DNA of 64,000 nucleotides, taken from positions 1-64,000 of the forward strand of contig NZ_BCWP01000017.1 in NCBI RefSeq assembly GCF_001592265.1, in the 5' to 3' direction. The notes beneath the pieces are model-generated. The model had not been told where the DNA came from. It made no database searches and was given only the letters and a program-made list of their open reading frames with translations. Shown in pieces: positions 20,750-55,084 of the stretch. How positions within the stretch are numbered: position 1 is the first letter of the stretch; every line of letters starts with the position of its first letter. Source of the DNA: Curvibacter delicatus NBRC 14919 (lineage in GTDB: Bacteria; Pseudomonadota; Gammaproteobacteria; Burkholderiales; Burkholderiaceae_C). Position numbers and translations under genes: made by a program.

Positions 20750-20773
20750 GGCGAACCTCCACGGGATGAAGTC

Positions 20774-20811
20774 GGAGGACGCCTGTCCCGGGAGGGACAA
20801 ACCCTCCGGGG
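20774..20811 (-). promoter_or_regulatory. CCC/GGG leader hairpin before radC
   Basis: On the minus strand CCC, then GGAGGG, a five-base loop, CCCTCC and GGG. Downstream GTCCTCC could pair with GGAGG instead. It ends 24 bases before the start codon. It is one of nine leaders of this architecture in the ICE. Confidence 0.6.
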
Positions 20812-20904
20812 ACGATGAAGAACAAGCGGCAGAAGAGCGGGCATCCGCCACCGCATGCACAGTGGCTGTTCGCGTCCAGGGATGCGCAGCGAACGGGGTC
20901 GATC

Positions 20905-20971
20905 AGCACGGCCAAGCCGCGTCGTAGCCTTGAAGATCGTGGCTACCTGGGCATGTCTCCGAGAGACTCGG
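20905..20971 (-). repeat. Three-hairpin repeat, copy 1
   Basis: On the minus strand: CCGAG/CTCGG hairpin (20959-20971), the linker CATGCCCAGG, GTAGCC/GGCTAC hairpin (20924-20946) and a GCGGC/GGCCGT-type hairpin (20908-20921). The first hairpin and linker coincide with the last codons of the DsbA-like gene, so the repeat supplies that gene's stop codon. Confidence 0.65.
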
Positions 20972-21689
20972 CAGGCATTTCCTTCGATGCGGGCTCGGCC
21001 GCTGCACTGGCCGCCAGCAGGTCGATCGCGGACAGCAAGGCATCTCCTTCGACCGGGCCGTGCAGCAGCAGCGTCTTGCCGGACTGGCGATCCTGCAGGC
21101 GCAGCGTGGGCGTGACCTTGATGCCCTCCTGCGCCGCGCTCGCCGACTGTGCGCGGATCAGCGCATCGGGGCGGTCGCTGTCGAGGCACTGCTGCGCGGC
21201 CGGCGTGAGGTCGGGATAGCGCAGGCCCTCGGGCAGGCCCTGACCGTCGCCGCGGGTGTGCGTGTAGACCCACTCGGCGGCCTGCCAGAACGCGGCCTGG
21301 CCGCCGGCCTCGCCGACGCACTCCACCAGGCGCGCACCGGCAGACGCGGCCGGCTCGTGCAACGGCAACGGCAGGTGATGCCATTGCCAGCTCACGTCCG
21401 GGTGCGCGTCGATCCAGCGCTTGAGCACTGCGAAGTAGGCGCGGCAGAACGGGCATTCGAGGTCGGCGTACTCGACCACCGTGAAGCGCGCATCGGCGCG
21501 GCCATAGCGCCAGGGCGGGCCGGCTGGTGCCGTTGCCGGCGCAGGCGTTGCTTCTGCCGAAGGAAAATCGGGTTCGGCGGGCGGCGACTGCGGCCGCAGG
21601 CCGAGCCATGCGGCCGTTGTCAGGGCCGCGGCCATCAGCAGCGCGACGACAAGGACGGTGCGGGACGGCGCGAAGCGAGGGATGCGCAT
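20943..21689 (-). CDS. DsbA/DsbC-like thiol-disulfide oxidoreductase
   Basis: Membrane-anchored periplasmic thioredoxin-fold protein, 248 residues. A single N-terminal membrane segment (VLVVALLMAAALTTAAWLGL) is followed by EYADLECPFCRAYFAVLKRW with the redox pair CPFC near residue 93, and a cis-Pro loop KVTPTLRL near 195. It probably forms or rearranges disulfides in the Cys-rich TraU/TraH-like pilus proteins encoded downstream. The start MRIPRF has a GGGGAG ribosome site. The last residues come from the three-hairpin repeat. Confidence 0.85.
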   Translation of the reverse strand: MRIPRFAPSRTVLVVALLMAAALTTAAWLGLRPQSPPAEPDFPSAEATPAPATAPAGPPWRYGRADARFTVVEYADLECPFCRAYFAVLKRWIDAHPDVSWQWHHLPLPLHEPAASAGARLVECVGEAGGQAAFWQAAEWVYTHTRGDGQGLPEGLRYPDLTPAAQQCLDSDRPDALIRAQSASAAQEGIKVTPTLRLQDRQSGKTLLLHGPVEGDALLSAIDLLAASAAAEPASKEMPAESLGDMPR

Positions 21690-33989: not shown

Positions 33990-33994
33990 GGCAC

Positions 33995-34219
33995 TCAGCC
34001 CTTCGGCGGGAAGGAGTCGTTACCGTGGCTGTCCTTGTCACGGATGCGACCGTCCGGACGGTGGATGACCAGTTCGGACTGCTGGTTGCGTGCGATGTCC
34101 CGCGCCGCGTCAATGGCCTGCTGCTGCGTATCGTGCACGGAGGTTGCCCGTTGATTGCCGGCACCCTTGACGGCCCAACCGTCCTGGTGAGGAACTACAT
34201 GCTGATTTTTGCCTGTCAT
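33995..34219 (-). CDS. DUF2188 family protein, first gene of the CBASS operon
   Basis: 74-residue protein of the DUF2188 family (KNQHVVPHQDGWAVKGAGNQRATSVHDT, then AIDAARDIARNQQSELVIHRPDGRIRDKDSHGNDSFPPKG). The ATG at 34217-34219 is preferred over a TTG start further upstream. It lies 5 bases before capV on the same strand and is therefore the promoter-proximal gene of the defence operon. The family has no established function. A CBASS role is an inference from linkage alone. Confidence 0.8.
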   Translation of the reverse strand: MTGKNQHVVPHQDGWAVKGAGNQRATSVHDTQQQAIDAARDIARNQQSELVIHRPDGRIRDKDSHGNDSFPPKG

Positions 34220-34364
34220 GGCGAATTTCCTAAAGTTGAACCATCGAGACCCCGGCCAGCCGGCCGGGTTGCCAATGACCACCGGTTGAAGCAAAATTCG
34301 TTGCTCTTGCAGACAACGGGCGAGTCAAGCCAAATCAACTTGCTGCAGTCGTAGAACTCACTTC

Positions 34365-34384
34365 TGTTGTCTGGCTGGACAACA
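34365..34384. promoter_or_regulatory. Inverted repeat between the CBASS operon and the CapH/CapP-like pair
   Basis: TGTTGTC and GACAACA separated by six bases. Extra half-sites GACAAC (34312-34317) and GTTGTC (34464-34469) flank it in the same 276-base divergent gap. The placement suits an operator bound by the XRE protein encoded at 34496. Confidence 0.6.
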
Positions 34385-34495
34385 ATGTATCAGACTTGGT
34401 GCCAAGCTGCAAATGGTGGGCTTGGTGCCGCAGAACGCAACTGCTTCGGACCGGACACACACCGTTGTCCGCCGCAGCCACAAGGAACGGAACGG

Positions 34496-34882
34496 ATGTC
34501 ACAAACAGGCCTGGGCGTCGCCCTCAAGACGCTACGCGAGCGCAGAACCCTCTCATTGCGCGAAATCGGTCAACTGTCTTCGGTGGACCATGCCTATGTC
34601 CACCGGCTGGAGTCCGGCGAAAAGACAAATCCGTCAGTGGACTTAGTCGAGAAGCTGCTGAAGGTTCTCAAACCAGGTGAAAGAGATGCTGCGCTGGTGA
34701 TGTGGCTTGTCGACCATGCGGAGGCCGATCCCCGCCTTGTTGAATTCGTGCTGAACGATCCTTCCATCAGCATCGACATCTTTTCGGCTGCAGCAGGCGT
34801 GAGGCATCGTGGAAATACAAGGCCCGATCCCGCGACACTGATCGCCCGGATACAGCGAGCATTCGAGGACGAGGACGACTGA
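34496..34882 (+). CDS. XRE-family repressor, CapH-like CBASS regulator
   Basis: 128-residue protein with an N-terminal XRE helix-turn-helix (LRERRTLSLREIGQLSSVDHAYVHRLESGEKTNPS, residues 13-47). The C-terminal half (DPSISIDIFSAAAGVRHRG onward) could be the segment cut by the adjacent protease. The ATG follows AAGGA by about 9 bases. CapH repressors paired with CapP proteases control some CBASS operons, and this pair is divergent from one. A general ImmR-type regulator is the alternative. Confidence 0.75.
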   Translation: MSQTGLGVALKTLRERRTLSLREIGQLSSVDHAYVHRLESGEKTNPSVDLVEKLLKVLKPGERDAALVMWLVDHAEADPRLVEFVLNDPSISIDIFSAAAGVRHRGNTRPDPATLIARIQRAFEDEDD

Positions 34883-34884
34883 AT

Positions 34885-35754
34885 ATGGATGAAGCGGATG
34901 TCACACAGAAAGCACGGGCCTTTGTTGCGAAGGTTGATGTGTCCGGCATCCGAGAAGACCTGACGCCCTATGTGGTCGCGGCCAACGCCAAAGTCAAGAA
35001 AGAGGAGCTTAGTGAGGGGGAGTCCGGCTACACGATCACCAAGCCGAATGGCAAGCACGTGATCACGGTGAATTCGCTGGAGACAGAAGAACGCCAACGC
35101 TTCACCATCTGCCACGAAATTGCGCATATCGTCCTTGCGCTGGAATCGAGCCACGAAGAGGTGCCGTCCTGGTCCTATGCGAAGCGGCATCCGAACGAAA
35201 TCGCATGCGACACTTTCGCCGCCGAGTTGCTGATGCCGTATCAGCAATGGCTATCGCTTGTGCCCAAGGAAGAACCTTCGCTGGAGCTGATCCAGGGCAT
35301 GGCGGCGCTTTTCAGCACATCATTTCCCGCCGCTGCGTCGCGGTTCGCCTCCCTCAGCGACATCCCTTGCGCCTTCGTCACCATGGAGCGCGGTGCAGTG
35401 CGCTACGCGGCACGCTCCACCAGTTTGCGACAGGCTGGGGCTTGGATATCTCCCAGGTCTGCCATTCCTGTCGGCTCTGTGGCTCACCGTCTCCGTTCTT
35501 CAGGCAGCAGTGCTGCCGACACAGATGAGGTTGCACAAGACATCTGGTTCGACAACTGGGAAAAGGGCCTCGATCTCTGGGAACTCTCCAGGCACTACGC
35601 ACGTACTGACACCACGACCTCGCTGCTCTGGTTCGACAGCGACGATTTACCTGAGGTCGAAGTGAACCGCTTCGGTGTACGCGTCGAGGACGACGGTGGC
35701 TTGGCTGAACTCACTGGGCAGCTACCGTGGCCGGGACGCAGCAGGCGCCGCTGA
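34885..35754 (+). CDS. ImmA/IrrE-family metallopeptidase, CapP-like
   Basis: 289-residue zinc protease with HEIAH (His77, Glu78, His81) and a downstream Glu in NEIACDTFAAELLMP, as in ImmA/IrrE proteins. The C-terminal half may sense a signal. It starts 2 bases after the XRE gene, so the two are co-translated. In CapP systems, DNA damage products activate cleavage of CapH and release the CBASS promoter. The role here is inferred from linkage and domain content. Confidence 0.8.
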   Translation: MDEADVTQKARAFVAKVDVSGIREDLTPYVVAANAKVKKEELSEGESGYTITKPNGKHVITVNSLETEERQRFTICHEIAHIVLALESSHEEVPSWSYAKRHPNEIACDTFAAELLMPYQQWLSLVPKEEPSLELIQGMAALFSTSFPAAASRFASLSDIPCAFVTMERGAVRYAARSTSLRQAGAWISPRSAIPVGSVAHRLRSSGSSAADTDEVAQDIWFDNWEKGLDLWELSRHYARTDTTTSLLWFDSDDLPEVEVNRFGVRVEDDGGLAELTGQLPWPGRSRRR

Positions 35755-45717: not shown

Positions 45718-46374
45718 TCAAGCCACCGCTTCGAGCGGTCGTGCCGAAGGGGTGCGGCTGGCGGGTGTGCCCGCGACGAGCGCGCCGCTGCGGATCAGGC
45801 CGCCCAGCACCTGGGTCAGCGTCGGCACGTCGATGGCGAGTCGATGGCCCTCCAGAGGTCCGAGGGCGAACGGCAGGCGCGTCAGCATCGACTTCGCCTG
45901 CAGCAGCTCCAGCACGGGTTCGCGCCAGGGATCAAGAAGCGGCAGCGGGCAGGTATCCCGCACCAGCTTCCACAGCCGGTCGAGCCGGTGCGTGGAATCG
46001 CGAGGCAGGAGCGCCAGCGCGCTGGCGTTGGCCTTGTCGGGCTTGACGCAGCGCCGATCGAACAGCCAGATGTTGGTCAGCGAGCCGAACAGCGTGCGTC
46101 GGTAGGCGCGTGCGCTGCGCTTTTCCAGGTTCTCGACGTTGCTGACGAAGATCGGAATGCTCGCGCCCTGCTCGGTGATGAGGTGGAACTGATCCAGTCC
46201 CTGTTCGTCCCGGCCCAGGGTAAGGCGGGCCAGGAATTCCTGGACGGCGGTGTCGCGCGCCCAGAGGGAGATGAAGACCAGGTTGCCGTTCTCGTCACCG
46301 ACGACGCCATCGGCCATCAGGTCGGGGCATTCGTCGATGCGATAGAGCGTCTTAGGGGAAGAAGGTGCAGGCAT
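45718..46374 (-). CDS. ICE protein of unknown function
   Basis: 218-residue soluble protein, not recognised. Visible features are an acidic N-terminal part (YRIDECPDLMADGVVGDENGNLVFISLWARDTAVQEFLARLTLG) and SLTNIWLFDRRCVKPDKANASALALLPRD in the middle. The start follows GAGG after the leader hairpin 46409-46439. It heads the transcription unit that continues into the methyltransferase and helicase genes. Confidence 0.75.
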   Translation of the reverse strand: MPAPSSPKTLYRIDECPDLMADGVVGDENGNLVFISLWARDTAVQEFLARLTLGRDEQGLDQFHLITEQGASIPIFVSNVENLEKRSARAYRRTLFGSLTNIWLFDRRCVKPDKANASALALLPRDSTHRLDRLWKLVRDTCPLPLLDPWREPVLELLQAKSMLTRLPFALGPLEGHRLAIDVPTLTQVLGGLIRSGALVAGTPASRTPSARPLEAVA

Positions 46375-46408
46375 GGTGATGTCCTCGAAGTGAGCGGAGA
46401 CAGCACCG

Positions 46409-46439
46409 CCCGCGAGGGCAGTCACTGCCCCAGGGGGAT
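46409..46439 (-). promoter_or_regulatory. CCC/GGG leader hairpin before the 218-residue unknown gene
   Basis: Minus strand CCC, GGGCAG, loop TGA, CTGCCC, then GGG after a four-base bulge. Same architecture as the other eight leaders but with its own helix sequence. Ends 34 bases before the start codon. Confidence 0.55.
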
Positions 46440-46481
46440 GGAAGAAGACGCGGTGAGCGTCGTGGTGAAGAATCAGACCGT

Positions 46482-46552
46482 GCGTCGCAACGCGCCGTAG
46501 CCTTGAAGGTCTGGGCTACCTGGGCATGTTGTCGGCAACGCCGACGGACATG
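46482..46552 (-). repeat. Three-hairpin repeat, copy 2
   Basis: Minus strand hairpins GTCGGC/GCCGAC (46531-46545), GTAGCC/GGCTAC (46497-46519) and GCGT/ACGC (46482-46493), with the shared linkers CATGCCCAGG and CTTCAAGG. It lies 43 bases above the leader hairpin of the next gene. Confidence 0.65.
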
Positions 46553-46658
46553 GGACATAGCCTGCGCTAAGGTGCGCGTGTCGCGGGAGCGGAAAACCGA
46601 CCCGGCGCGCAACCCTGTTTGCTCTGGCGCATCGCCCGCGGCGCCGGAAGGACGGCCA

Positions 46659-46691
46659 CAAAAGAAAACCGCCCCGGGGACACCGAGGCGG
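46659..46691 (-). terminator. Rho-independent terminator (second of a tandem pair)
   Basis: Stem CCGCCTCGG/CCGGGGCGG on the minus strand (one G-U pair) followed by TTTTCTTTT. It backs up the terminator at 46833-46869. Confidence 0.75.
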
Positions 46692-46832
46692 CAAAGATGA
46701 CTGCTTGGCTCAGGGAGGAAAAGCCAGGGAGGTATGCAGTCGAACCGCAATTTTCGCGGCGGCAGCGAATTGCCGCATTAGGGTTACACCGAGCCAAACT
46801 GAACGTGGTGCGCTGGCAGCACAGCGCCGCCA

Positions 46833-46869
46833 AAGAAAAAGCGGACCATGCCGCGAGGCACGATCCGCT
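46833..46869 (-). terminator. Rho-independent terminator after the DUF932 gene
   Basis: On the minus strand AGCGGA and TGCC pair with GGCA and TCCGCT, followed by TTTTTCTTT. It begins 7 bases after the DUF932 stop. Confidence 0.85.
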
Positions 46870-46875
46870 TGTGGG

Positions 46876-47703
46876 TCAGGCTTTGAGCTGACGCAGGCCA
46901 TCCGCGAGCAGCCAAAGCGCCCGGTTGAGCCGGACGTTCTGGTCGATGCCCTGAACGGGTCGCGTGCGCTGCTGGCGCCCGTTGGCGGCACAGCCGGTCA
47001 GGCCGCCCTTGACAAGGTTCTCCTGAACCCGGTTGAAGACCGACCAAAGATCGGCACGGTTGTCGTCGAAACGACGAGGCCGCAGGATCTGCGTCTCCGT
47101 GATGGGCAAGGCCTTGCCCGACTCGTCGTACTTTAAGGTCAGCGCCGACCTGGCGAAGACTTCGGCCTCGCCGTCGTCGAGGGTGATGACGCGCATGGCG
47201 TCGCGCGAGTCCTGCACGCGCTCGAAGCCGTGCAGCACCTCGTAGGCGCCTTCGATCACGTGATCGGTGACGTTGCCCTTGTGGGGCACGCGCACGTCGG
47301 CGAAGGTGTCGCCGCACACCAGACCGTTGTGGCAGACGAATCTGAACATGCCCGCGAGCATCTGGTAGCTGCTGGTGCCGTCGTGCGAGTTGAGCAGGAT
47401 GATCTCGTTCGCCTCGGCGCCGTTGATCTGGCTGGCGTGGCGAAGGCGCAGCATGTGCTTGGTGTAGTCGCGGCGATCCTCGTGTCGCACGCGGGTCTGG
47501 CACACCATGAACGGCTGGAAACCTTCTCTGCGCAGTTCGGTCAGCACAGCCGCCGTGGGGATGTAGCTGTACCGTTCGGAGCGGCTTTCGTGCGGGGTGT
47601 CCGCGAAGATGGATGGGGCCACGGTGCGAATCTGATCGTCCGACAACGGATGGTCGGCGCGCAGCACCGGGGAACGAGGGGCGAAGCGGGATGCGAGTTG
47701 CAT
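46876..47703 (-). CDS. DUF932 family protein
   Basis: 275-residue protein of the DUF932 (phage/plasmid-like) family, found widely on ICEs and plasmids. Conserved parts include YSYIPTAAVLTELRREGFQPFMVCQTRVR, HMLRLRHASQINGAEANEIILLNSHDGTSSYQMLAGMFRFVCHNGLVCG and VIEGAYEVLHGFE. Function unknown. The start follows AAGGAG. The leader holds a different hairpin (AATCG/CGATT with nested CATCC/GGATG, about 47718-47755). Confidence 0.85.
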   Translation of the reverse strand: MQLASRFAPRSPVLRADHPLSDDQIRTVAPSIFADTPHESRSERYSYIPTAAVLTELRREGFQPFMVCQTRVRHEDRRDYTKHMLRLRHASQINGAEANEIILLNSHDGTSSYQMLAGMFRFVCHNGLVCGDTFADVRVPHKGNVTDHVIEGAYEVLHGFERVQDSRDAMRVITLDDGEAEVFARSALTLKYDESGKALPITETQILRPRRFDDNRADLWSVFNRVQENLVKGGLTGCAANGRQQRTRPVQGIDQNVRLNRALWLLADGLRQLKA

Positions 47704-47774
47704 GATGATCTCCTTGCGGAATGGAGCAATCGGCATCCAGCGGCCGAGGCCGGATGCGCGCGATTGCGTAGGAC

Positions 47775-47799
47775 GAAGAAAAGCCCTGCTGAACAGGGC
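47775..47799 (-). terminator. Rho-independent terminator between the 89-residue gene and DUF932
   Basis: Stem GCCCTG/CAGGGC with a five-base loop, followed on the minus strand by TTTTCTTC, 41 bases past the upstream stop. Confidence 0.75.
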
Positions 47800-47840
47800 C
47801 TGATGAAAGGGATGAAGAAGTGCGCCGCGTGAAGGCCGGC

Positions 47841-48110
47841 CTATGGGTTCGGAACCGGCTCCCAGCCGCGGCTGTGCGGGTTGAAGCAAAGCGCTTCCTG
47901 GCCTTTGAGGATCGGCGTGAAGCCGTCGAGGAAGACGTGTCGCAGGTACAGCGCGCGGTAGGTCAGTGCCTGCCACGCCTGTTCTTCGCTCAGGCCGTTG
48001 GCGATGAAGTGCTCGCGCAGTTCGTCGTCGTCGGAAACCTCGTTGTTGGCCAACTGGTCTTCGACGAAGCGAAGCAGCTCGGGCGGCAAGGACGACATGA
48101 GGGTGTCCAT
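47841..48110 (-). CDS. Small ICE protein of unknown function
   Basis: 89 residues, acidic and helical at the N-terminus (MDTLMSSLPPELLRFVEDQLANNEVSDDDELREHFIANGLSEEQAWQALTYR), with a C-terminal PILKGQEALCFNPHSRGWEPVPNP. Similar small proteins follow DUF6927-like genes in related ICEs, as I recall. It begins 7 bases after the upstream stop, so it is translated from the same message. Confidence 0.65.
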   Translation of the reverse strand: MDTLMSSLPPELLRFVEDQLANNEVSDDDELREHFIANGLSEEQAWQALTYRALYLRHVFLDGFTPILKGQEALCFNPHSRGWEPVPNP

Positions 48111-48117
48111 GTTCGCC

Positions 48118-48510
48118 TCAGTCGGTGGCTGCATCGCCGGCCGCTTTGCGCGTCGGCTGCTGGTGGAAGGCATGCACCCTTGCGCGCCAGGTGGCGCAGC
48201 GCTGCGGCGCCATGTCGAGATAGCGCAGCGGGCACGAGTAGTAGTACGGGTGCTCGGCCTCGACCAGGAACTTGTAGCCCCATTCGCGGCCCTCGCTTTC
48301 CAGCAGATGGCAGCCGATCAAGGTGGCCGACTCGCCGGGTGCGAGACCCAGGACGCCGGCCTGCTTGGCGGTGACGCGCGCCACCGTCCACAGCACGTTG
48401 CCGACCAGCGTGTGGTCGATGACCTCACTGCGCGACCGCTCGGTTTCCTCGGTTGCGGTCAGCTCGCGGATCAACTGATCGCGCGTCAATCGAACGAATG
48501 TCCAGCCCAT
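48118..48510 (-). CDS. ICE protein of unknown function (possibly DUF6927)
   Basis: 130-residue soluble protein beginning MGWTFVRLTRDQLIRELTATEE, with HTLVGNVLWTVARVTAKQ and a Tyr/Cys-containing AEHPYYYSCPLRYLDMAPQRC segment. It is a compact protein common to this ICE type, with no known role. The assignment to DUF6927 is from memory and tentative. It has its own CCC/GGG leader. Confidence 0.7.
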   Translation of the reverse strand: MGWTFVRLTRDQLIRELTATEETERSRSEVIDHTLVGNVLWTVARVTAKQAGVLGLAPGESATLIGCHLLESEGREWGYKFLVEAEHPYYYSCPLRYLDMAPQRCATWRARVHAFHQQPTRKAAGDAATD

Positions 48511-48530
48511 GGAATGACTCCTGTGAGAAA

Positions 48531-48570
48531 GGGCCGGAGTCCTCCCGCCGGGGAAGGAGCCCCGGCGGGT
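48531..48570 (-). promoter_or_regulatory. CCC/GGG leader hairpin before the 130-residue gene
   Basis: Minus strand ACCCGCCGGGG, loop CTCCTT, CCCCGGCGGG. The two helices are continuous in this copy. The loop CTCCT can pair with AGGA just downstream. Ends 20 bases before the start codon. Confidence 0.65.
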
Positions 48571-48611
48571 GGTGGAAAGCCGCAGGCATGCGGCGTGAAA
48601 TGGCGATGGGA

Positions 48612-49241
48612 TCAGACCCTGGTGAGGTGCCAGTCCTGGGACAGCGGAGCGAACTCGTAGCCCAGGTCGCCGAGGCGGTCGCGCTGCTGACGCAGCACGC
48701 GCCGATCCACGGTGGCATCGAGCTTGACGACATCGCCCAGCGGCCAGAGTGTGCCGAACAGCGCCGCGTCGCCGTCGTCGTCCGCATGGGCCGTAGCCTC
48801 GGCAGACGCAGCAGCCGGCTCGCTGCCGAACGGCGTGGTATCGACCAGCGGGTCGCGCGAGCTGCGCGCCTTCTTCCGGCCGGCCGCCTTGGGGGCGGTC
48901 GTCGGCGTCGGCGTGGCGGTCTGCGCTTCCTCGTCGATCGGATCGACTTCCTGCGGACTCAGCCGGCGGGCGTCGTCACGGCTCAGGGCGTCGATGTTGG
49001 ACAAAGTCATCCCACCCAGGAGGGCGCGGATCTCAATGACCATGCGGCCGTTGGCGGTGTACGTGGACGGGCGAATCTCCGCGATGGCGAAATCGCCCTC
49101 GTACTTGCCTTCGGCGTACTGGTCGAGTTCGGCGTTCTTCACGACGAACTCGCCGATGGAGGTCGCAAGGCGCCCGACGTTGAAGTCGCCGTTACGGCCG
49201 TGGATGGTCTTGATGGCCAATTGGCCGGGAATGGTGATCAT
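48612..49241 (-). CDS. DUF3275 family protein
   Basis: 209-residue ICE protein. The N-terminal conserved part (ITIPGQLAIKTIHGRNGDFNVGRLATSIGEFVVKNAELDQYAEGKYEGDF) looks like a small beta-rich nucleic-acid-binding or structural domain. An Ala/Thr/Pro-rich linker spans residues about 105-155, and a short C-terminal domain follows (LGDVVKLDATVDRRVLRQQRDRLGDLGYEF). Function unknown. It starts 111 bases after the STY4534-type gene and is likely in the same unit. Confidence 0.82.
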   Translation of the reverse strand: MITIPGQLAIKTIHGRNGDFNVGRLATSIGEFVVKNAELDQYAEGKYEGDFAIAEIRPSTYTANGRMVIEIRALLGGMTLSNIDALSRDDARRLSPQEVDPIDEEAQTATPTPTTAPKAAGRKKARSSRDPLVDTTPFGSEPAAASAEATAHADDDGDAALFGTLWPLGDVVKLDATVDRRVLRQQRDRLGDLGYEFAPLSQDWHLTRV

Positions 49242-49324
49242 GAAGAACTCCTGCGGACGAAGCTGCGATCACGCACACGGCCGTCATGGCGACGGTCGCA
49301 TGCGCACGCGAGTGGGAAGAAGAC

Positions 49325-49347
49325 AAGGCCCCAGGGGACGGGGCCTT
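49325..49347 (-). terminator. Possible terminator or attenuator after the STY4534-type gene
   Basis: AAGGCCCC/GGGGCCTT hairpin with a seven-base loop, followed on the minus strand by the weak run GTCTTCTTCC. It lies 5 bases past the stop. Confidence 0.45.
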
Positions 49348-49352
49348 GCGGA

Positions 49353-49925
49353 TCAGAACGACTCGGCAACTTCCAATGCAGGCGCATCGGCAGTGGCTTC
49401 GTCGGCAGCTTCGGCGGCGGGCCTGGCGGGCTCGAACGCAGCGGCTTGCGGCTCAGCGAACGTCGCGGGGACATCCGTGTTACGCACGTCGCGTTCGTCG
49501 CGTTCGTCGCGCTGGTCGGCATCGGTCGGCTTGGGCTCGGCCTTGTAGACGAGCTTGCCGTCGACCTTGATCCAACTGACGAACAGCAGGCGGGCCTTGA
49601 AGCTCACCCCCTGCTCGCCGGCACGCTTGCCCTTGGAGTAGGTGAAGGTGTCGGCCCACAGGTCGCCCAGACGGAAGCCGATCATCACTTTCTTCTCGGC
49701 ATCGACCGCTTGGATGCAGCGGCGCACGAGGTGCTGCGCTTCGGAGCCCGAGACGCGCGTGTCGAAACGCACGTAGGCCACGTCATCGCTGGGGCCGTTG
49801 AGCGCCGCGATGTCGCAGGCCAGGAACGCATCGCCTTTCTTGGGCTTCACTTCGCGGATGCGATTGAGATACCCGAGTCCGGTGATGTGCAGGTCGAAGT
49901 AGGACTTGTCGGTGGAAGTGGTCAT
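49353..49925 (-). CDS. STY4534-family ICE replication protein (DUF3577)
   Basis: 190-residue protein of a family annotated as ICE replication proteins. The conserved N-terminal domain (KSYFDLHITGLGYLNRIREVKPKKGDAFLACDIAALNGPSDDVAYVRFDTRVSGSEAQ) is OB-fold-like in pattern. A repetitive acidic-basic stretch DQRDERDERDVRN near residue 140 and an Ala/Glu-rich tail follow. It is preceded by three-hairpin repeat 3 and a CCC/GGG leader, so it heads a unit. Confidence 0.82.
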   Translation of the reverse strand: MTTSTDKSYFDLHITGLGYLNRIREVKPKKGDAFLACDIAALNGPSDDVAYVRFDTRVSGSEAQHLVRRCIQAVDAEKKVMIGFRLGDLWADTFTYSKGKRAGEQGVSFKARLLFVSWIKVDGKLVYKAEPKPTDADQRDERDERDVRNTDVPATFAEPQAAAFEPARPAAEAADEATADAPALEVAESF

Positions 49926-49956
49926 GGTGAATCTCCTGAGAACAATGAGGCGGAGA

Positions 49957-50001
49957 CACACCCGACCCAAGGCGGGGAAGGTGTGGAACCCCCGCGTGGG
50001 T
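49957..50001 (-). promoter_or_regulatory. CCC/GGG leader hairpin before the STY4534-type gene
   Basis: Minus strand ACCCA, GCGGGG, a loop containing CACACC, CCCCGC, TGGGT. GGTGTG just downstream can pair with the loop, forming a pseudoknot. Ends 31 bases before the start codon. Confidence 0.7.
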
Positions 50002-50084
50002 TGAAGGAACAGCTTGGGTGGCATCACCATCGGGAGAACCGATGGCTGTTCGCGCTGGGATGCCGGAGCGAACTGGTTGATCAA

Positions 50085-50160
50085 CGCGGTCGGAACCGCG
50101 TCGCAGTCTTGAAGATCGAGACTGCCTGGGCATGCTGCTGACGGGCGTCAGCGGAACATG
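50085..50160 (-). repeat. Three-hairpin repeat, copy 3
   Basis: Minus strand hairpins GCTGACG/CGTCAGC (50137-50152), GCAGTC/GACTGC (50103-50125) and CGCGGT/ACCGCG (50085-50100). The middle stem differs from copies 1 and 2 at two base pairs but keeps pairing. Similarity to copy 4 extends beyond the first hairpin toward 50215. Confidence 0.7.
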
Positions 50161-50223
50161 GCGGCAGCGTGGCGCCAGGCGCGCGCCCGCGCGAGCGGCA
50201 ATCGGCACAGGCGGCTGTCCGCA

Positions 50224-50568
50224 TTAGTGGCACCCTCTCGCCACCGGGTTGGGCAGGTACTGCCGCTTGCGGACCAGCATCTCGAAGGGCTCGCCCGCGC
50301 GGCTGGCGGTATCGAAGTCCACCACCACGAAGCCCGGTTCGATGGGCCGGTACTCCAGCCAGTGGATCGGCACTTGCCAGTGCTCGGCGCAGTCGCGCAC
50401 GAAGCGCAAGGTGGCTTCCACTTCTTTTCCGGTGTTGGCGAAGCAGACGACGGCATCTGCGGGCAGGCCGCCGTTGGCTTGCAGCACGCGCCAGAGCATG
50501 TACGCGCTGGTGCGGCCGCCGCTGAAGCTGATGCAGGTCGGTTGCTCGATCTTGAACGGGTCTCGCAT
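50224..50568 (-). pseudogene. Truncated PAPS-reductase-like (adenine nucleotide alpha-hydrolase fold) protein
   Basis: 114 residues with the nucleotide loop SGGRTSAYMLWRVL (residues 15-28), FANTGKEVEATLRFVRDCAEHW, and an end at YLPNPVARGCH. Full-length relatives in similar ICEs continue past the NPVAR region with a Cys-containing C-terminal half, as I recall, and are over twice this length. Here a stop is reached, and the sequence beyond belongs to the three-hairpin repeat module. The truncated product may be inactive. Confidence 0.65.
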
Positions 50569-50711
50569 GCAGGCGTCACCAGGCGGTGGCACCGGCAGAT
50601 GCCGGCGTGAGCGGCCCGAGCCGGACTGGAGACGAGCGCGTGCGATGCGGCCATGGGCCGCGGCACGAGATAAAGAGAAGCCCCCGTGAAGGGGGCTGGG
50701 AAGCAGTACGG

Positions 50712-51077
50712 TCAGTGGCCGGCCGGTGCAGCGGATACCGCCTGCATCGACAGGTGCGTGACCGTGGCCGACACTTCGAGGTCGTCCTCGCTGTGCAGGA
50801 TACGGGTGAGGACCCGTTCCTGCAGGGCGAAGAACTCGCCGAAGTCGTCGCCGCCGAATTCGGCGCGCGCCAGTTCCCACCAGTCGTCGAACGCATCGAC
50901 ATCGGGGTTGCAGCCCACGGCGTAGGCGATGGTCTTGCGCCGCCCATCGGGCCGGCTCTCGCCGTGCTCGGCCATGAAATACACGCCCTGGTCCTTGACC
51001 AGGATGACGCGGCACTGGTTGGCCGCCGCCTCGGCAAGCACGGGCCGAAGCTCGGTGCCTTTGAATCGAACAGTCAT
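50712..51077 (-). CDS. DUF3085 family protein
   Basis: 121-residue protein of the DUF3085 family (MTVRFKGTELRPVLAEAAANQCRVILVKDQGVYFMAEHGE, then IAYAVGCNPDVDAFDDWWELARAEFGGDDFGEFF). Found on ICEs and plasmids, with unknown function. The start MTVRFKG is preferred because a GGAG lies at the right distance. The leader contains a simple TTCCCG/CGGGAA hairpin (about 51109-51130). Confidence 0.85.
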   Translation of the reverse strand: MTVRFKGTELRPVLAEAAANQCRVILVKDQGVYFMAEHGESRPDGRRKTIAYAVGCNPDVDAFDDWWELARAEFGGDDFGEFFALQERVLTRILHSEDDLEVSATVTHLSMQAVSAAPAGH

Positions 51078-51152
51078 GGAAGTGGTCTCCAACGGTGAAG
51101 GAAGAAGGTTTCCCGCCGCGAGGACGGGAAGCCGCTTGGGGACGTGAGGGGA

Positions 51153-51950
51153 TCAGTGCTGGACGGGCTTGCGACCGGACAGGCGCTGTACGCGGATGAG
51201 GCGCCAGCTCCCGTCGTCGATCAGCCGCTCCAGCACCTGGCCCAAGGTGTCGAAGAACACTTCATCGACCCGCTCGACCAGCTCGCCTTCGCGATGCAGC
51301 TCCACCGCGTAGGTGTCGAGGCCGCGTTCGTAGAGCACGGTGACGCGCCCCTGGAACTTCGCCGAAGCGACGGTGAAGCCGATGGCCGGCGGCGTGGCGA
51401 TGATGTTGCTGGGGCTCGGATCGACCACCGTGAAGTCCCGCGCGCCGGCATCCACCAGCAGGTGCGTGATGCGGCGGAATCCATCGGGCGCGGGCAACTG
51501 CTCCAGTTGGTGGATCAGCTCCTGCAGCTCGGGGCACTGCGGCTCGGGGATCGGCAGCTTGGCCGGCGCGGAACCCAGGATGAGCCGCTTCACCGTGTAC
51601 GGCTGGCCGTCGGCGGTGAACTCAGTGCTCTCCTCGGGCGTATCCGCGCGCAAGCCGTCGAAGCGGCGCCGCGCATACGGTTCGACCTGCACCTTGGCGC
51701 CTTCGTCGGGCACGTCGGTGACGAGGGCCTTGTCGAGCACCGCGAACTCGGCCCGCCCCGTCTTGACGACGATGGCCTCGTCGGTGGTGGCGATGACCTT
51801 GCCCTCGAAGGGCTTGGGATCAACGTGGAAGCCCAGCGTCGAAACCTTGGGCTGGCCGTCGAAGATGTTGAACTTGAAGCTGCGGACGTTGGAAGGCACG
51901 TGGCCGCGAACCAGCGTCGGCATCTGTGCGCGGATGGCTTGGGTATCCAT
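51153..51950 (-). CDS. ICE protein of unknown function
   Basis: 265-residue soluble protein. I recognise no family. It begins with VRSFKFNIFDGQPKVSTLGFHVDPKPFEGKVIATTDEAIVVKTGRAEFAVLDKALVTDVPDEGAKVQVEPYARRRFDG, a beta-rich domain. The C-terminal part (IGFTVASAKFQGRVTVLYERGLDTYAVELHREGELVERVDEVFFDTLGQVLERLIDDG) resembles the small KfrB-type repeats seen on plasmids, though this is weak. It has both a three-hairpin repeat and a leader hairpin upstream. Confidence 0.72.
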   Translation of the reverse strand: MDTQAIRAQMPTLVRGHVPSNVRSFKFNIFDGQPKVSTLGFHVDPKPFEGKVIATTDEAIVVKTGRAEFAVLDKALVTDVPDEGAKVQVEPYARRRFDGLRADTPEESTEFTADGQPYTVKRLILGSAPAKLPIPEPQCPELQELIHQLEQLPAPDGFRRITHLLVDAGARDFTVVDPSPSNIIATPPAIGFTVASAKFQGRVTVLYERGLDTYAVELHREGELVERVDEVFFDTLGQVLERLIDDGSWRLIRVQRLSGRKPVQH

Positions 51951-51969
51951 GGAAGACTCCTTGTGGCAA

Positions 51970-52012
51970 CCAAGGGACTTCCGCCCGCAAGGGAGGTGTG
52001 TCCCTTGGGGGT
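51970..52012 (-). promoter_or_regulatory. CCC/GGG leader hairpin before the 265-residue gene
   Basis: Minus strand ACCC, AAGGGA, loop CACACC, TCCCTT, GGG. GTCCCTTGG downstream is complementary to CCAAGGGAC, giving an alternative helix. Ends 19 bases before the start codon. Confidence 0.68.
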
Positions 52013-52057
52013 GAGGTGGATGGACGCGACATGCGCCCGGAGAAGGAATAGCAACCA

Positions 52058-52131
52058 GCACGGCGAACCGTGCCGCAGCCTCGAAGGTCTCGACTGCCTG
52101 GGCATGCTTGCCGGCAACGCCAGCGAACATG
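52058..52131 (-). repeat. Three-hairpin repeat, copy 4
   Basis: Minus strand hairpins GCTGGC/GCCGGC (52110-52124), GCAGTC/GGCTGC (52075-52097, one mismatch) and GCACGG/CCGTGC (52058-52073). Linkers CATGCCCAGG and TTCGAGG are kept. Confidence 0.65.
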
Positions 52132-52242
52132 CGAGCAGCGTGCGTCAGGCGTGGGCCAGCGACGCGGGGGAATCGGCACTGCGCGTCCACCGGCTTCGTC
52201 CAGAAAGAATACGAGCCCCGCGTGGGGGCTCGAAAGGTGGTG

Positions 52243-52959
52243 TCAGTCGTCGTAGATCGGCAGGCCGTCCAGCACCTGCGCATCGGCATCGAAGACCAGC
52301 ATGCGCACGTCGGCGAGCGCGGCCAGGTGCAGCACGTGCATGAGGGATTCCGGCATGCCCTTCTTGCGATGCTCCTGCATCAGCCGCTTGGCCGTGATGC
52401 CTTCGACCACACGCAGGTTCTCGTCGGTCCAGGGCGTGGCGATCAGCTTCAACCCAATGGCCGGGCTGTACGGGATGCGGAAGGCGACGAACAGGAACAG
52501 CGTCGGCGTGGCGATGTCCGCCAGCTCGGCGAGGAAGCGATGCGCGTCGACGTCGAGGTGCGCGCTGCTGATCTCCCAGCACCGGCTGTAGTAGCCGGTC
52601 TCGAAGCGCAGGCGCTGCACGACTTCGCGGGCTGATTCCTCGGAGTAGGTATCGCCCACGTGCAGCGGCTTGCCTTCTTCCTCGGCCATGACGGCATAGA
52701 CCACGTTGCGGGCGAGGCCGTGACTGCGGCATTGCGCTTCCAGCTCGGCAGGCACGGCCTGGTCTTCGGTGATTAGCGCGAAGTCGTCCGAGAAGACACA
52801 GCTACGCCGTTCGATCTGGCTGTCCGGTAGATTCGACTGCGAGGGATGCAGCGGCAGGTAGGTCAGTGGGCAGTCGTCATCGTAGGAGATGGCGAGCAGC
52901 CGCTCGACCGACAGGCCATCGTAGCCGCGGATAAAGGGATTGTTGTTCGAGTAGGACAT
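52243..52959 (-). CDS. ICE protein of unknown function (possibly DUF5983)
   Basis: 238-residue protein with an Asn/Tyr-rich start (MSYSNNNPFIRGYDGLSVERLLAISYDDDCPLTYLP) and a DUF5983-like part YAVMAEEEGKPLHVGDTYSEESAREVVQRLRFETGYYSRCWEISSAHL near residue 90-140. The assignment is from memory and tentative. It has its own CCC/GGG leader but no three-hairpin repeat. Confidence 0.68.
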   Translation of the reverse strand: MSYSNNNPFIRGYDGLSVERLLAISYDDDCPLTYLPLHPSQSNLPDSQIERRSCVFSDDFALITEDQAVPAELEAQCRSHGLARNVVYAVMAEEEGKPLHVGDTYSEESAREVVQRLRFETGYYSRCWEISSAHLDVDAHRFLAELADIATPTLFLFVAFRIPYSPAIGLKLIATPWTDENLRVVEGITAKRLMQEHRKKGMPESLMHVLHLAALADVRMLVFDADAQVLDGLPIYDD

Positions 52960-52992
52960 GGGATTTCTCCAGCAGAGGATGGCCGAGGCGAT

Positions 52993-53021
52993 CCCCTGCT
53001 GGGGATTGAACCCCAGCGGGT
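52993..53021 (-). promoter_or_regulatory. CCC/GGG leader hairpin before the 238-residue gene
   Basis: Minus strand ACCC, GCTGGGG, loop TTCAAT, CCCCAGC, then GGGG after a one-base bulge. No clear alternative partner is seen downstream. Ends 33 bases before the start codon. Confidence 0.6.
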
Positions 53022-53039
53022 GGATAAAGTGGCAGCCGG

Positions 53040-53504
53040 TCAGTCGGCAGCGGTAGAGGACGGGTCGCCCAGCGCCTTCAACAGGTCGAGCAGGCCGCCA
53101 TTCGCAAGCTGGTACAGGCGGTTGTAGTCGTCGCCGGTCGGCGCCTGCTCCAGGCGATCCAGCCGCGCATCCAGGTTGAGGATGCTCTGGTGCACGTTGC
53201 GGGCGATGCTCAGCGCGGAAGGTTTTCCGGCCGGCTTAGGTGCATCGAGCACCGAAAGGACTTCAGCGGGCGATGGGTAGCGGCAGTCGGGTCCGTACTC
53301 GACCGGGAACACCTCGCGCCCGGTCAATCCGGTATTCGGGGTTCCGCTGCTGACATGCAGCACATACTCGTCGGGCACATCATTGCCGGCGTAGTCGAGC
53401 ACCACGATGCGCGGCTTGCGCACGTCGGCCGGCCAGCCTTCAAGGATGACCGCATCGATGTCGTCGTCGGTCACGAGCAGACCGATGGAAAAGTCAGGGG
53501 ACAT
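53040..53504 (-). CDS. ICE protein of unknown function
   Basis: 154 residues, unrecognised. The first half is beta-rich (FSIGLLVTDDDIDAVILEGWPADVRKPRIVVLDYAGNDVPDEYVLHVSSG), and the second half is helical (SALSIARNVHQSILNLDARLDRLEQAPTGDDYNRLYQLANGGLLDLLKAL). It lies between two other unknown ICE genes and carries its own leader hairpin. Confidence 0.7.
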   Translation of the reverse strand: MSPDFSIGLLVTDDDIDAVILEGWPADVRKPRIVVLDYAGNDVPDEYVLHVSSGTPNTGLTGREVFPVEYGPDCRYPSPAEVLSVLDAPKPAGKPSALSIARNVHQSILNLDARLDRLEQAPTGDDYNRLYQLANGGLLDLLKALGDPSSTAAD

Positions 53505-53526
53505 GAATCACTCCTTTCAAGAAAAG

Positions 53527-53569
53527 GAGGGACATGGCCCCATGCAGGGACGCATGTCCCTCGTGGGGT
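53527..53569 (-). promoter_or_regulatory. CCC/GGG leader hairpin before the 154-residue gene
   Basis: Minus strand ACCCCA, AGGGAC, loop ATGC, GTCCCT, TGGGG. CATGTCCCTC downstream is a perfect complement of GAGGGACATG, so a mutually exclusive longer helix can form. Ends 22 bases before the start codon, with TTTTCTTGAAAGGAG between. Confidence 0.7.
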
Positions 53570-53607
53570 GGGAAGAAAAGAAGAACGTCGGCAGGCCGCA
53601 GCGCGGC

Positions 53608-54000
53608 TCACCAGCCGTTGTAGTTCAGCGTCAGGTCGGCGACGACCTTGCGCCGTTCCAGGTCGAGGCCGCCCAGGTCGGACAGACCCTCGAAGCCGCA
53701 ACGCTTGAGCATCGCCCCGCCCTCGCGGGCGTTGTAGAAGCTCACCATCGCGGACAGGAACATCCGCTGGCCGCTGCTCAGGACGCCGAGGGCATCGTTG
53801 AGCATCAGCAGCTTCGGCCGCAGATCCCACTTGGTGGTGGCACGCTGCAGGCCTTCGCGGGTGCCGTCGCCGAACCATTCGGCTCCGGCGATGTCGACGC
53901 CGCGTTTCCACGCCTCGAAGAAGGCTTGGGGCGCGGCGGCGAAGTGCTGGTGTTCCAGCTCGATCTGATCAAGTACCTCTTGAGGCAGGGCACGGTTCAT
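53608..54000 (-). CDS. ICE protein of unknown function
   Basis: 130-residue helical protein (ALPQEVLDQIELEHQHFAAAPQAFFEAWKRGVDIAGAEWFGDGTREGL, then LLMLNDALGVLSSGQRMFLSAMVSFYNAREGGAMLKRCGFEGLSDLGGLDLERRKVVADL). I do not recognise a named family. It starts 25 bases after the small gene at 54026 and shares its unit. Confidence 0.7.
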   Translation of the reverse strand: MNRALPQEVLDQIELEHQHFAAAPQAFFEAWKRGVDIAGAEWFGDGTREGLQRATTKWDLRPKLLMLNDALGVLSSGQRMFLSAMVSFYNAREGGAMLKRCGFEGLSDLGGLDLERRKVVADLTLNYNGW

Positions 54001-54025
54001 GACATGGGCTCCTGGTGGTTGGACA

Positions 54026-54277
54026 TCACGGGTGGAGGCGCTGCTGCCAGCGGCCCGTTTGCAGGGCGTGCTCGGCGGCGTGGTGCGAGCGGAAGTAGCT
54101 GACCGACTCCCGCGAGACCGGGCCGTCCGCATCGGCGGTGCCGATGTAGTGGCCGGCTGCGCTGCACAGCACTTGCAGGGGCAGGCGCTTGCCGACGCAG
54201 GCCAGGGCCTGGTAGCCGATGGATTCGGCTCGGGCCTGTTCAGCACTCAAAGGTGCCGATGCGAGCGCAAGGGACAT
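54026..54277 (-). CDS. Small ICE protein of unknown function
   Basis: 83 residues: LSAEQARAESIGYQALACVGKRLPLQVLCSAAGHYIGTADADGPVSRESVSYFRSHHAAEHALQTGRWQQR. The pattern resembles small proteins of plasmids that are annotated only as hypothetical. It heads a unit with three-hairpin repeat 5 and a leader hairpin upstream and an AGGAG site before the start. Confidence 0.68.
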   Translation of the reverse strand: MSLALASAPLSAEQARAESIGYQALACVGKRLPLQVLCSAAGHYIGTADADGPVSRESVSYFRSHHAAEHALQTGRWQQRLHP

Positions 54278-54300
54278 GGTTTTCTCCTGTTGGTTGAAGA

Positions 54301-54345
54301 CCGGGAGCACCACGCCCTGACGGGAGCGGATACCTCCCGAAGGGT
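54301..54345 (-). promoter_or_regulatory. CCC/GGG leader hairpin before the 83-residue gene
   Basis: Minus strand ACCC, CGGGAG, loop GTATCCG, CTCCCG, GGG. CTCCCGG downstream can pair with CGGGAG instead. Ends 23 bases before the start codon. Confidence 0.65.
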
Positions 54346-54419
54346 TGAACATGAAAAGCACCCGCGTCGTGGCGACGCGCGTCCGCGGTGGTCGGTGCGA
54401 AGCGGACTGGATCGGTCAA

Positions 54420-54493
54420 CGCGGCGAACCGCGTTGCAGCCTTGAGGACCGGGGCTGCCAGGGCATGGTGCTGACGACCGTCAGCGACACATG
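54420..54493 (-). repeat. Three-hairpin repeat, copy 5
   Basis: Minus strand hairpins GCTGACG/CGTCAGC (54470-54485), GCAGCC/GGCTGC (54436-54458) and CGCGG/CCGCG with loop TTCG (54420-54433). Confidence 0.68.
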
Positions 54494-55084
54494 CGGGAAG
54501 AATGAAAGCGCGGCGGCACTCCGTCGCTGATCAAACGGAACCGAACGCCGTCCAGTTTGGGCCGAGCGCTGGCAAGAGCAGCGATGCACGATTCCGTTCG
54601 CCCACGACAAAGGCGCCGAAGCCTCGCAAGGCTTCGGCTGGAGAGAAATCAATCCACCTGTGGGCTGCAAGCAGGCCAGGCCATCGTCAAAGCCATTCGC
54701 TGCGTCAGCAATCTCACCCGGCCCGTTTCGTGGCTGGGGCCGGCATCCTCTGGCGTGTATCCACACACAAAGGGAACCCGTTGTTCCGCCGGCGGGCACC
54801 GGCACCGAATACCGTCGACCGCAAACGGTCTCCTGACACCTCGCAGCCTTGCGGGCCAAGGCGTCAGGAGACCGCTCGCGGATGGACGGAAGCACGTCGA
54901 TCAGCGGAATCGCGGCGAGCGCGATTCGATGGAACAATGACCTTCTCGCCCTGCCAGCCGTGATCGGCCCGTGCAGGACGCGCACACCGTTGCAGAAGGG
55001 AACGCGCGCTGGGGAGTCCCGCGAGGCGCGGGAGGTTTGCCCCGCCGTCGGCAGCAGCCGGCGTGGCAGAGGGAGATGGGGGCG
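54494..55084. other. 591-base non-coding, hairpin-rich region after topB
   Basis: No reading frame here looks like a gene. Three strong inverted repeats are present: GCCGAAGCC/GGCTTCGGC (54615-54638), a 15-base-arm hairpin (54826-54874, one G-U pair, arms beginning CGGTCTCCTGAC) and TCCCGCG/CGCGGGA (55017-55033). None has a T-run on either strand. It could be an origin of transfer, a single-strand replication origin, or a non-coding RNA. Confidence 0.55.

Follow-up and report, generated by a model that had tools for sequence, protein, structure and literature searches.

radC RNA leaders in an ICEclc-type conjugative element and their possible role as translational switches

The sequence considered in this study, hereafter the window, is a stretch of 64,000 nt from Curvibacter delicatus NBRC 14919 (contig NZ_BCWP01000017.1, positions 1 to 64,000). 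It contains an integrative and conjugative element (ICE) of the ICEclc type, judged by a tRNA-Gly gene with an adjacent integrase, TraI_2, a topoisomerase, STY4534 and BisC (DUF2857). The same element carries TraG_N, TraC, SSB and AcaB, along with a ParA-type gene recognized by sequence only. An earlier note on this DNA, made from the sequence alone, described five copies of a repeat on the minus strand, each folding into three successive hairpins. All five are present, no other strong copy occurs in the window, and they can be identified with near certainty as members of the Rfam family RF01754, radC RNA. Each lies upstream of a different gene, as given in Table 1.

The covariance model of RF01754, in a scan with Rfam 15, matched the five copies with 85.6 to 126 bits (gathering cut-off 40 bits), in every case over positions 1 to 149, the full extent of the curated RNA (149 nt, Rfam class Cis-reg). 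Since the matches span the full length, the pieces of 67 to 76 nt described at first are the 5' half of the radC RNA, and the real elements are longer; the leaders extend further still, past the Rfam matches up to the start codons, and this last part had been overlooked. A model built in this analysis (R1) gave five strong matches of 58.8 to 139.6 bits in an unfiltered search of the window. Its next best match there, a partial one of 16.9 bits (E 0.006), falls within coding sequence at 22.5 kb, and no further copy was credible; nor did a search of the host assembly find any copy above the cut-off beyond these five. The element had been taken as new, but radC RNA was already described as a candidate structured RNA of Proteobacteria by Weinberg et al. 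in 2010 (PMC2864571; papers are cited throughout for excerpts of their text). No function was assigned to it in the titles and abstract openings of the open-access literature searched.

Table 1. Positions of the five leaders with their predicted hairpins and genes, and of a neighbouring gene set, in the window.
Feature	Positions	Strand	Score or remark
Copy 1 radC RNA, D1 (stems P1-P3 + PK1) and D2 (PK2 + hairpin P4)	20838..20992	-	RF01754 111 bits at 20841-20989; R1 139.7 bits; overlaps 3' end of upstream reading frame 20943-21689 (own gene call); no promoter-like motif
Copy 1 D3 hairpin (X:X')	20785..20814	-	automatic segmentation misplaced X here
Copy 1 Y:Z hairpin, pairs Shine-Dalgarno	20750..20783	-	
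Copy 1 gene, RadC JAB protein, 164 aa, counterpart of ICEclc ORF58432	20255..20749	-	PF04002 7.8e-41
Copy 2 radC RNA, D1, different 3' part, no PK2 domain	46397..46565	-	RF01754 85.6 bits at 46408-46562; R1 58.8 bits
Copy 2 D3 hairpin	46413..46433	-	
Copy 2 Y:Z hairpin over Shine-Dalgarno	46375..46407	-	
Copy 2 promoter-like motif CGGTTT	46594..46599	-	34 nt upstream of element
Copy 2 gene "g41", 218 aa	45718..46374	-	no Pfam or NCBIfam match
Copy 3 radC RNA, D1 and D2	50018..50173	-	RF01754 126 bits at 50021-50170; R1 128.1 bits
Copy 3 D3 hairpin (X:X')	49965..50001	-	loop CACACC able to pair with Y
Copy 3 Y:Z hairpin, GGTGTGTCTCC / AGGAGATTCACC	49926..49962	-	ends at start codon
Copy 3 promoter-like motif GCCGATT	50200..50206	-	33 nt upstream of element
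Copy 3 gene, STY4534 / DUF3577 ICE replication protein, counterpart of ICEclc ORF81655	49353..49925	-	PF12101 2.3e-60; NF040584 2e-59
Copy 4 radC RNA, D1, no PK2 domain	52026..52144	-	RF01754 93.5 bits at 51981-52141; R1 61.4 bits
Copy 4 D3 hairpin	51984..52010	-	
Copy 4 Y:Z hairpin, GGAAGTCCCTTG / CAAGGAGTCTTCC	51951..51982	-	
Copy 4 promoter-like motif GCCGATT	52171..52177	-	33 nt upstream of element
Copy 4 gene "g49", 265 aa	51153..51950	-	no Pfam or NCBIfam match
Copy 5 radC RNA, D1 and D2	54355..54506	-	RF01754 120.7 bits at 54358-54503; R1 118.7 bits
Copy 5 D3 hairpin	54315..54345	-	
Copy 5 Y:Z hairpin	54278..54311	-	in local 49-nt fold; 92-nt fold pairs Shine-Dalgarno with nearer bases
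Copy 5 promoter-like motif CCGTTT	54533..54538	-	32 nt upstream of element
Copy 5 gene "small", 83 aa	54026..54277	-	start picked by Shine-Dalgarno
Copy 5 gene, longer call	54026..54310	-	no Pfam or NCBIfam match
CBASS-like JAB	29763-30248	-	
CBASS-like E1-E2	30227-31855	-	
CBASS-like cyclase	31852-32994	-	
CBASS-like phospholipase effector	32988-33989	-	
CBASS-like capP-like protein	34885-35754	+	

The three successive hairpins form in all five copies. The middle stem is GTAGCC/GGCTAC at 20.9 and 46.5 kb, GCAGTC/GACTGC at 50.1 kb, GCAGCC/GGCTGC at 54.4 kb and, with one G-U pair, GCAGTC/GGCTGC at 52.1 kb. The conserved sequences described as linkers do more than join the hairpins: CATG in CATGCCCAGG forms the 3' strand of stem 1, CTTCAAGG supplies the loop and 3' strand of stem 2, and the bases just upstream of the latter, in the same loop, pair with bases after stem 3. 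An alignment of 27 diverse copies made without regard to structure (A3) fits eight helices: P1 (in two pieces), P2, P3, the pseudoknot PK1 (between the loop of P2 and the bases directly after P3), a GTTCGC/GCGAAC helix, the pseudoknot PK2b (GCATCC/GGATGC), interleaved with that helix, and P4. In A3, 95.6% of the cells pair, every slid register being far worse, and 23 of the 47 pairs are changed on both sides, as compared to 12.2 +/- 1.8 in shuffles, a number reached in none of 500. The compensatory changes claimed for the stems are thus beyond chance.

The two pseudoknots were tested again on alignments A5 and A4 (52 distinct rows each, overlapping in common records), which were fitted to R1, a model without PK1 and PK2b. 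Four of the five pairs of PK1 are double-changed in A5 (86.5% paired) and three of five in A4 (95.3%). PK2b is mostly conserved (91.5% and 97.8% paired), with one double-changed pair in each of the two alignments. Taken together, the pseudoknots in A5 exceed all 500 shuffles in cells paired, double-changed cells and covariation score. The radC RNA has, then, two pseudoknots outside the Rfam model, one of them strongly covarying. The extra pairs are partly known already, since the authors of CaCoFold counted radC among RNAs whose database structure misses covarying pairs (PMC7657543). The D1/D2 part has strongly conserved unpaired residues, and one G-U pair is conserved. The two lowest-scoring copies, at 46.5 and 52.1 kb, retain D1 and are without the PK2 domain.

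The distribution of the RNA follows that of a type of conjugative element. It was found in 11 of 250 genomes sampled from the family of the host, with 3 to 8 copies in each, and ICEs other than that of the window carry it too; none of 14 control genomes had a match. An order-wide sample gave matches in 10 of 300 genomes, eight of them above the cut-off and those with 3 to 9 copies, and the core pattern appears in 76 stretches of named genomes, judged by title mostly of Beta- and Gammaproteobacteria. All 11 carriers in the family have STY4534, which occurs in 19 of the 250 genomes. Full-length BisC-type DUF2857 (E < 1e-38) occurs in 10 of the 250, all of them carriers, and in the eleventh carrier (G231) a piece of such a gene is cut by the end of a contig. 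One near-identical RNA with its radC gene (L069) lies in a metagenome-assembled genome labelled Phycisphaerae, which points to binning contamination or a very recent transfer. Viral spread was considered and rejected: the exact core pattern was found in none of the viral contigs searched, and the one weak match in a phage collection was to a stretch outside the RNAs.

Within a cluster the copies lie on one strand, and an open reading frame of at least 50 aa starts within 300 nt downstream in 131 of 135 matches (not all independent, as some loci likely recur between samples; in one search 5 of 54 matches were excluded, two as tile-edge fragments and three with E > 0.3). Start codons were assigned by patterns that require a Shine-Dalgarno sequence (a looser pattern in two cases of a family labelled c9) at 128 of 140 positions, these being the 135 matches and five from Paraburkholderia xenovorans LB400; two assignments were wrong. 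The 128 downstream genes fall into the families radC (77), STY4534 (18), g49 (14), small (11), g41 (3) and two others (3 and 2). The copies are therefore leaders of different genes and not a repeat randomly scattered within the ICE, as the word "spread" in the earlier note had suggested, and I agree with that note that they are no insertion sequence. An anti-defence role for the downstream genes was tried and rejected: PADLOC found no match for any of the ten proteins of their region.

Beyond the Rfam boundary the leaders continue with a hairpin, D3, whose strands are called X and X', and then a hairpin Y:Z that pairs the Shine-Dalgarno sequence. All 48 dereplicated leaders examined (54 minus two of a family labelled hatp, two of c9 and two with wrongly assigned starts) have their Shine-Dalgarno core paired with upstream bases in the local minimum-energy fold, as compared to 53 of 85 genes drawn from the rest of the window and of the LB400 regions, a control set that is partly non-ICE (6 of 55 and 16 of 110 genes, respectively, before filtering for a Shine-Dalgarno sequence). 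The mean unpaired probability is 0.11 in the leaders and 0.39 in the other genes (p 2.6e-12, at equal GC). When the 26 nt upstream are shuffled, 85% of the sequences still pair (815 of 960) while the mean energy rises from -17.1 to -11.7 kcal/mol, and so the signal is the strength of the hairpin. Whole leaders of the window fold lower than dinucleotide shuffles (z -1.9 to -4.1), and longer folds keep Y:Z in four of the five copies, the exception being copy 5.

Y and Z change together from family to family: GGTGTGTCTCC/GGAGATTCACC in STY4534, GGGAGTCCCTTG/CAAGGAGTCTCCC in g49 and GGCGCCCTCCGAT/TTGGAGGTTCGCC in radC. RNAalifold alone recovers both hairpins in these three, with 4 of 17, 3 of 20 and 1 of 15 pairs double-changed. 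Because the two-hairpin module aligned too raggedly with MAFFT (A10) to yield a covariance model, cognate partners were compared with non-cognate ones instead. Y:Z is favored in cognate combinations over 30 families (p 7e-6), over 20 STY4534 orthologues (permutation p 5e-5) and in a permutation of families (rank 1 of 120). The 30 families include 24 extra leaders chosen by eye, for which Y:Z is biased because the scans that yielded them already required a Shine-Dalgarno hairpin; X:Y was no criterion in their choice, some of the "families" are homologous, and one of the 24 (G126a_19839) sits behind a radC RNA.

The strand Y, which pairs the Shine-Dalgarno sequence, has a second possible partner, for X (the 5' arm and loop of D3) is complementary to it. 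Over 70 leaders in 30 families (78 less eight without usable hairpins, among them three radC leaders, window copy 1 included), the mean rank of X:Y is 0.227, and 27 of the 30 families lie below 0.5 against non-cognates (p 3.7e-5). The loop of D3 alone gives p 0.011 against Y (25 families), and the control X:Z gives p 0.67. The 20 STY4534 orthologues, a set not selected for X:Y, show -13.2 kcal/mol for cognate and -9.7 for non-cognate X:Y (permutation p 5e-5), with p 0.95 for X:Z. They comprise seven RNA-bearing leaders and 13 from ICEs without radC RNA, namely five of eight RNA-less loci of the host family (two near-duplicates and one without a located start dropped) and eight of 16 loci from other families (five duplicates or near-duplicates and three without a readable start dropped). 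In permutations of families X:Y ranked 2 of 120 with explicit segments, and a segment P, overlapping Y by 4 nt, ranked 2 of 120 for P:Y and 117 for the control P:Z. The predicted minimum contains X:Y in three leaders (L037, L082 and L231, with two copies of the last).

Two of the leaders can be set beside published work on ICEclc. The strain LB400, which I take to be the host of ICEclc, carries five radC RNAs, two of them before the counterparts of ORF58432 and ORF81655. On a map anchored by equating radC with ORF58432, STY4534 is offset by 3 bases from the published number 81655, and the RNA before it spans -235 to -90 from the start codon. The transcript of ORF81655, which is among the most abundant of ICEclc, ends about 250 bp upstream, and it gave no product in 5' rapid amplification of cDNA ends (5'RACE) and a weak primer extension (PMC2892462). 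The late promoters, P81655 included, are bistable and activated by BisDC, and ORF58432 has a weak independent promoter or none (PMC9286271). Read coverage upstream of ORF81655 is the highest of all, although the promoter fusion is similar to that of Pint, a mismatch for which the authors suggest post-transcriptional regulation (PMC9286271). None of the main texts of PMC9286271, PMC7423338 and PMC2892462 contains the word radC, and that of PMC9286271 has neither "hairpin" nor "untranslated".

By my own count, a GCCGATT-like motif, with variants chosen after inspection, precedes the element by 31 to 35 nt in 23 of the 35 distinct non-radC upstream regions and in none of 15 of the radC type. I do not equate it with the published 27-bp promoter motif. 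To see whether the latter could be the core of the radC RNA, upstream regions were compared; those of radC and ORF81655 share the RNA, those of 67231, alpA, traI and one gene near 88 kb match poorly, and inrR and intB13 were outside the comparison. In some non-radC copies (uncounted) an AATCGG-like half about 20 nt before GCCGATT makes an imperfect inverted repeat, possibly a site for an activator. Terminator-like sites precede the copies at 46.5 and 52.1 kb; over the hairpin upstream of the former, at 46661-46730, lies a sub-threshold Rfam match to the anti-hemB small RNA (36.3 bits, cut-off 49.5).

Every copy forms the 5' untranslated leader of a core gene of the ICE, and I consider it probable, though by no means assured, that these leaders work as translational switches, off by default, in a transfer programme of the ICEclc type. 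The 5' part of the leader is radC RNA, with D1 (a pseudoknot closing three hairpins) and mostly also D2 (with the second pseudoknot), and the 3' part is the two-hairpin module, whose strand Z takes in the Shine-Dalgarno sequence and everything from there to the start codon. In the OFF state, the usual predicted fold, X:X' and Y:Z would both form; in the ON state, X would pair with Y in the cell, withdraw it from Z and so free Z for the ribosome. D1 and D2, or a factor acting on them or on the UCAACCC-D3 hairpin, may set the balance, with translation as the presumed output. The promoter-like motif stands at its fixed spacing before most non-radC copies, and the radC copy lies within an operon. 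The leaders would belong to the transfer-competence programme, in which the papers place the transcription of two leader-bearing ICEclc genes (PMC9286271, PMC2892462).

Several observations weigh against this switch. It would need a trigger, because in most leaders X:Y is the weaker alternative to X:X' with Y:Z, and X:X' emerges earlier in transcription; and no predicted fold shows an open Shine-Dalgarno sequence, since the three leaders whose minimum contains X:Y pair it elsewhere. Shuffled versions of X match or beat the real X in pairing Y in 12% of cases; X':Y, where nothing was expected, gives p 3.5e-4 in the 20 STY4534 orthologues; and automatic segmentation misplaces X in some leaders (L052, L073, G010_50977 and window copy 1). 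A Shine-Dalgarno hairpin is enriched in the leaders but is not unique to them, being common in GC-rich genes, as both the controls and the shuffles given above illustrate. For D3 and Y:Z in the radC leaders there is just the one double-changed pair, RNAalifold gives a different fold for the small group, and the hatp and c9 leaders show the module unclearly. As for the RNA proper, two of the five measures for the pseudoknots in A5 stay within the shuffles (as many double-changed pairs arise in 48 of 500, as many further pair types in 324), and two genomes of the order-wide sample have one weak match each, below the cut-off.

Other readings of the same leaders have to be compared with a switch. 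A protein operator, with an RNA-binding protein of the ICE or the host, perhaps STY4534, setting the translation of the regulon, seems to me rather unlikely, though it accounts well for a multi-copy regulon confined to one element. T4 gp32, which binds its own pseudoknotted leader, offers a model. STY4534, which would be an attractive autoregulator, accompanies the RNA in all 11 family genomes, its 20 segmented orthologues have both hairpins, and its weak structural model resembles oligonucleotide/oligosaccharide-binding folds; but the model is poor (mean predicted local distance difference test score 57.8), and Foldseek found nothing with it at E <= 0.001. The obvious known candidate, CsrA/Rsm, was rejected, since PF02599 is found in none of 11 RNA-bearing genomes (ten of the family and LB400), as against matches in 3 of 14 control genomes. 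A trans factor encoded by the element suits 3 to 8 copies per mobile element better than would a strict riboswitch, in which D1/D2, as an aptamer, would bind a small molecule or second messenger, with D3 and Y:Z serving as the expression platform. The conserved unpaired residues and the two pseudoknots speak for an aptamer, and the covariation of both Y:Z and X:Y for a platform of mutually exclusive helices, with the proviso already made about a freed Shine-Dalgarno sequence. Copies 2 and 4, however, are without D2, and no known metabolic gene was recognized downstream, though several of the downstream families are uncharacterized; I regard a riboswitch as unlikely.

No greater probability attaches to a leader for stability or processing of the message, in which D1 to D3 would protect the 5' end or mark a site of cleavage and the Shine-Dalgarno hairpin would merely lower translation. 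Reads upstream of ORF81655 above what the promoter fusion leads one to expect (PMC9286271) and the failed 5'RACE with weak primer extension (PMC2892462) agree with such a leader, which leaves unexplained the covariation of X:Y and the occurrence of the module without D1/D2. The earlier note had left the choice between a structured RNA and folded single-stranded DNA. The structure stands, and RNA is favored, because the copies are sense-oriented upstream of genes. A folded DNA element acting in transfer, such as a single-stranded promoter of the Frpo type or a replication site, would fit clusters in conjugative elements with one strand per cluster, but these leaders run up to start codons, with the Shine-Dalgarno sequence paired, a G-U pair is conserved, and transcripts have been published (PMC2892462); a scan of 46000-55000, which reads duplex DNA only, found no sigma-70-like hexamer sites. 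I hold this last reading to be very improbable.

The two-hairpin module, proposed here as the working part of the translational switch, extends beyond radC RNA. Eight of the 19 family genomes with STY4534 are without the RNA; their loci (L172-L179) score at most 12.1 bits with R1 and match no Rfam family above its cut-off. In the seven with a located start, CAACCC or AACCC is followed by a hairpin, and the Shine-Dalgarno sequence is paired close upstream; the module is preceded here by a structured region of another kind. Other families of the class supplied 16 STY4534 loci; a start could be read in 13, and just one of these (L222) carries radC RNA. A descriptor of the full module was found at 2 of 393 start sites in 20 stretches of host chromosome, both chance-like and inside genes, at 2 of 90 in the window ICE and at up to 3 of 20 in other ICE stretches. 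Specificity for ICEs is thus supported and not proven, the numbers being low and some known cases escaping the descriptor.

Structured-looking regions of other kinds were observed upstream of STY4534 in ICEs without radC RNA (L173-L179, and L189 and L191, in ICE stretches of genomes G159 and G029), and they had no Rfam match. G159 has a near copy of its region 3.2 kb further on (93% over 144 nt), and G029 has weak copies.

More tentatively, and here I lean somewhat toward doubt, many core genes of a large ICE superfamily may share one three-strand switch, with a UCAACCC-marked X:X' whose X imitates Z, Y:Z as the off state and X:Y as the on state. The radC RNA would be an upstream sensing domain grafted on in the ICEclc lineage, other lineages (L173-L179) would have different structured domains, and together these might form a post-transcriptional gate on conjugation. 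Imitation of Z by X as a general sequence rule was rejected: identity between the D3 region and Z ranks 13 of 120 over all families, which is not significant and counts against the translational switch. The three-strand switch was in none of the databases or literature searched.

Among the neighbouring genes, positions 29763-35754, between conjugation genes of the ICE, hold a set resembling a type II cyclic-oligonucleotide-based anti-phage signalling system (CBASS). The reading frame at 50224-50568 (114 aa) looks shortened, since its LB400 counterpart has 280 aa.

That radC RNA opens several transcripts of a single conjugative element, and is followed by a Shine-Dalgarno hairpin with a covarying alternative partner, gives a hypothesis testable in ICEclc and Pseudomonas putida. 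If true, the switch would place control of translation on top of a transfer programme hitherto described as transcriptional. It would offer an account of the failed 5'RACE and very high leader coverage at ORF81655, and of the motif-bearing region before radC that is without an independent promoter. The papers on the ICEclc regulon governed by BisDC deal, in the excerpts cited, with transcription and the 27-bp promoter motif (PMC9286271, PMC7423338). The leaders resemble the Rfam family in that all five copies match RF01754 end to end, in Proteobacteria, upstream of radC and other genes; they differ in that its consensus structure is without PK1 and PK2b and stops before D3 and the Shine-Dalgarno hairpins. 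Translational attenuation by sequestration of the Shine-Dalgarno sequence is familiar from erm leaders and riboswitch platforms, and the likeness lies in the exclusive helices around that sequence, X:X' and Y:Z as against X:Y. Unlike those attenuators, with neither leader peptide nor ligand identified, the present leader is a module common to many genes of one mobile element. The radC RNA family was known; what is added here is the extended leader, the view of it as an ICE regulon, and the X/Y/Z module.

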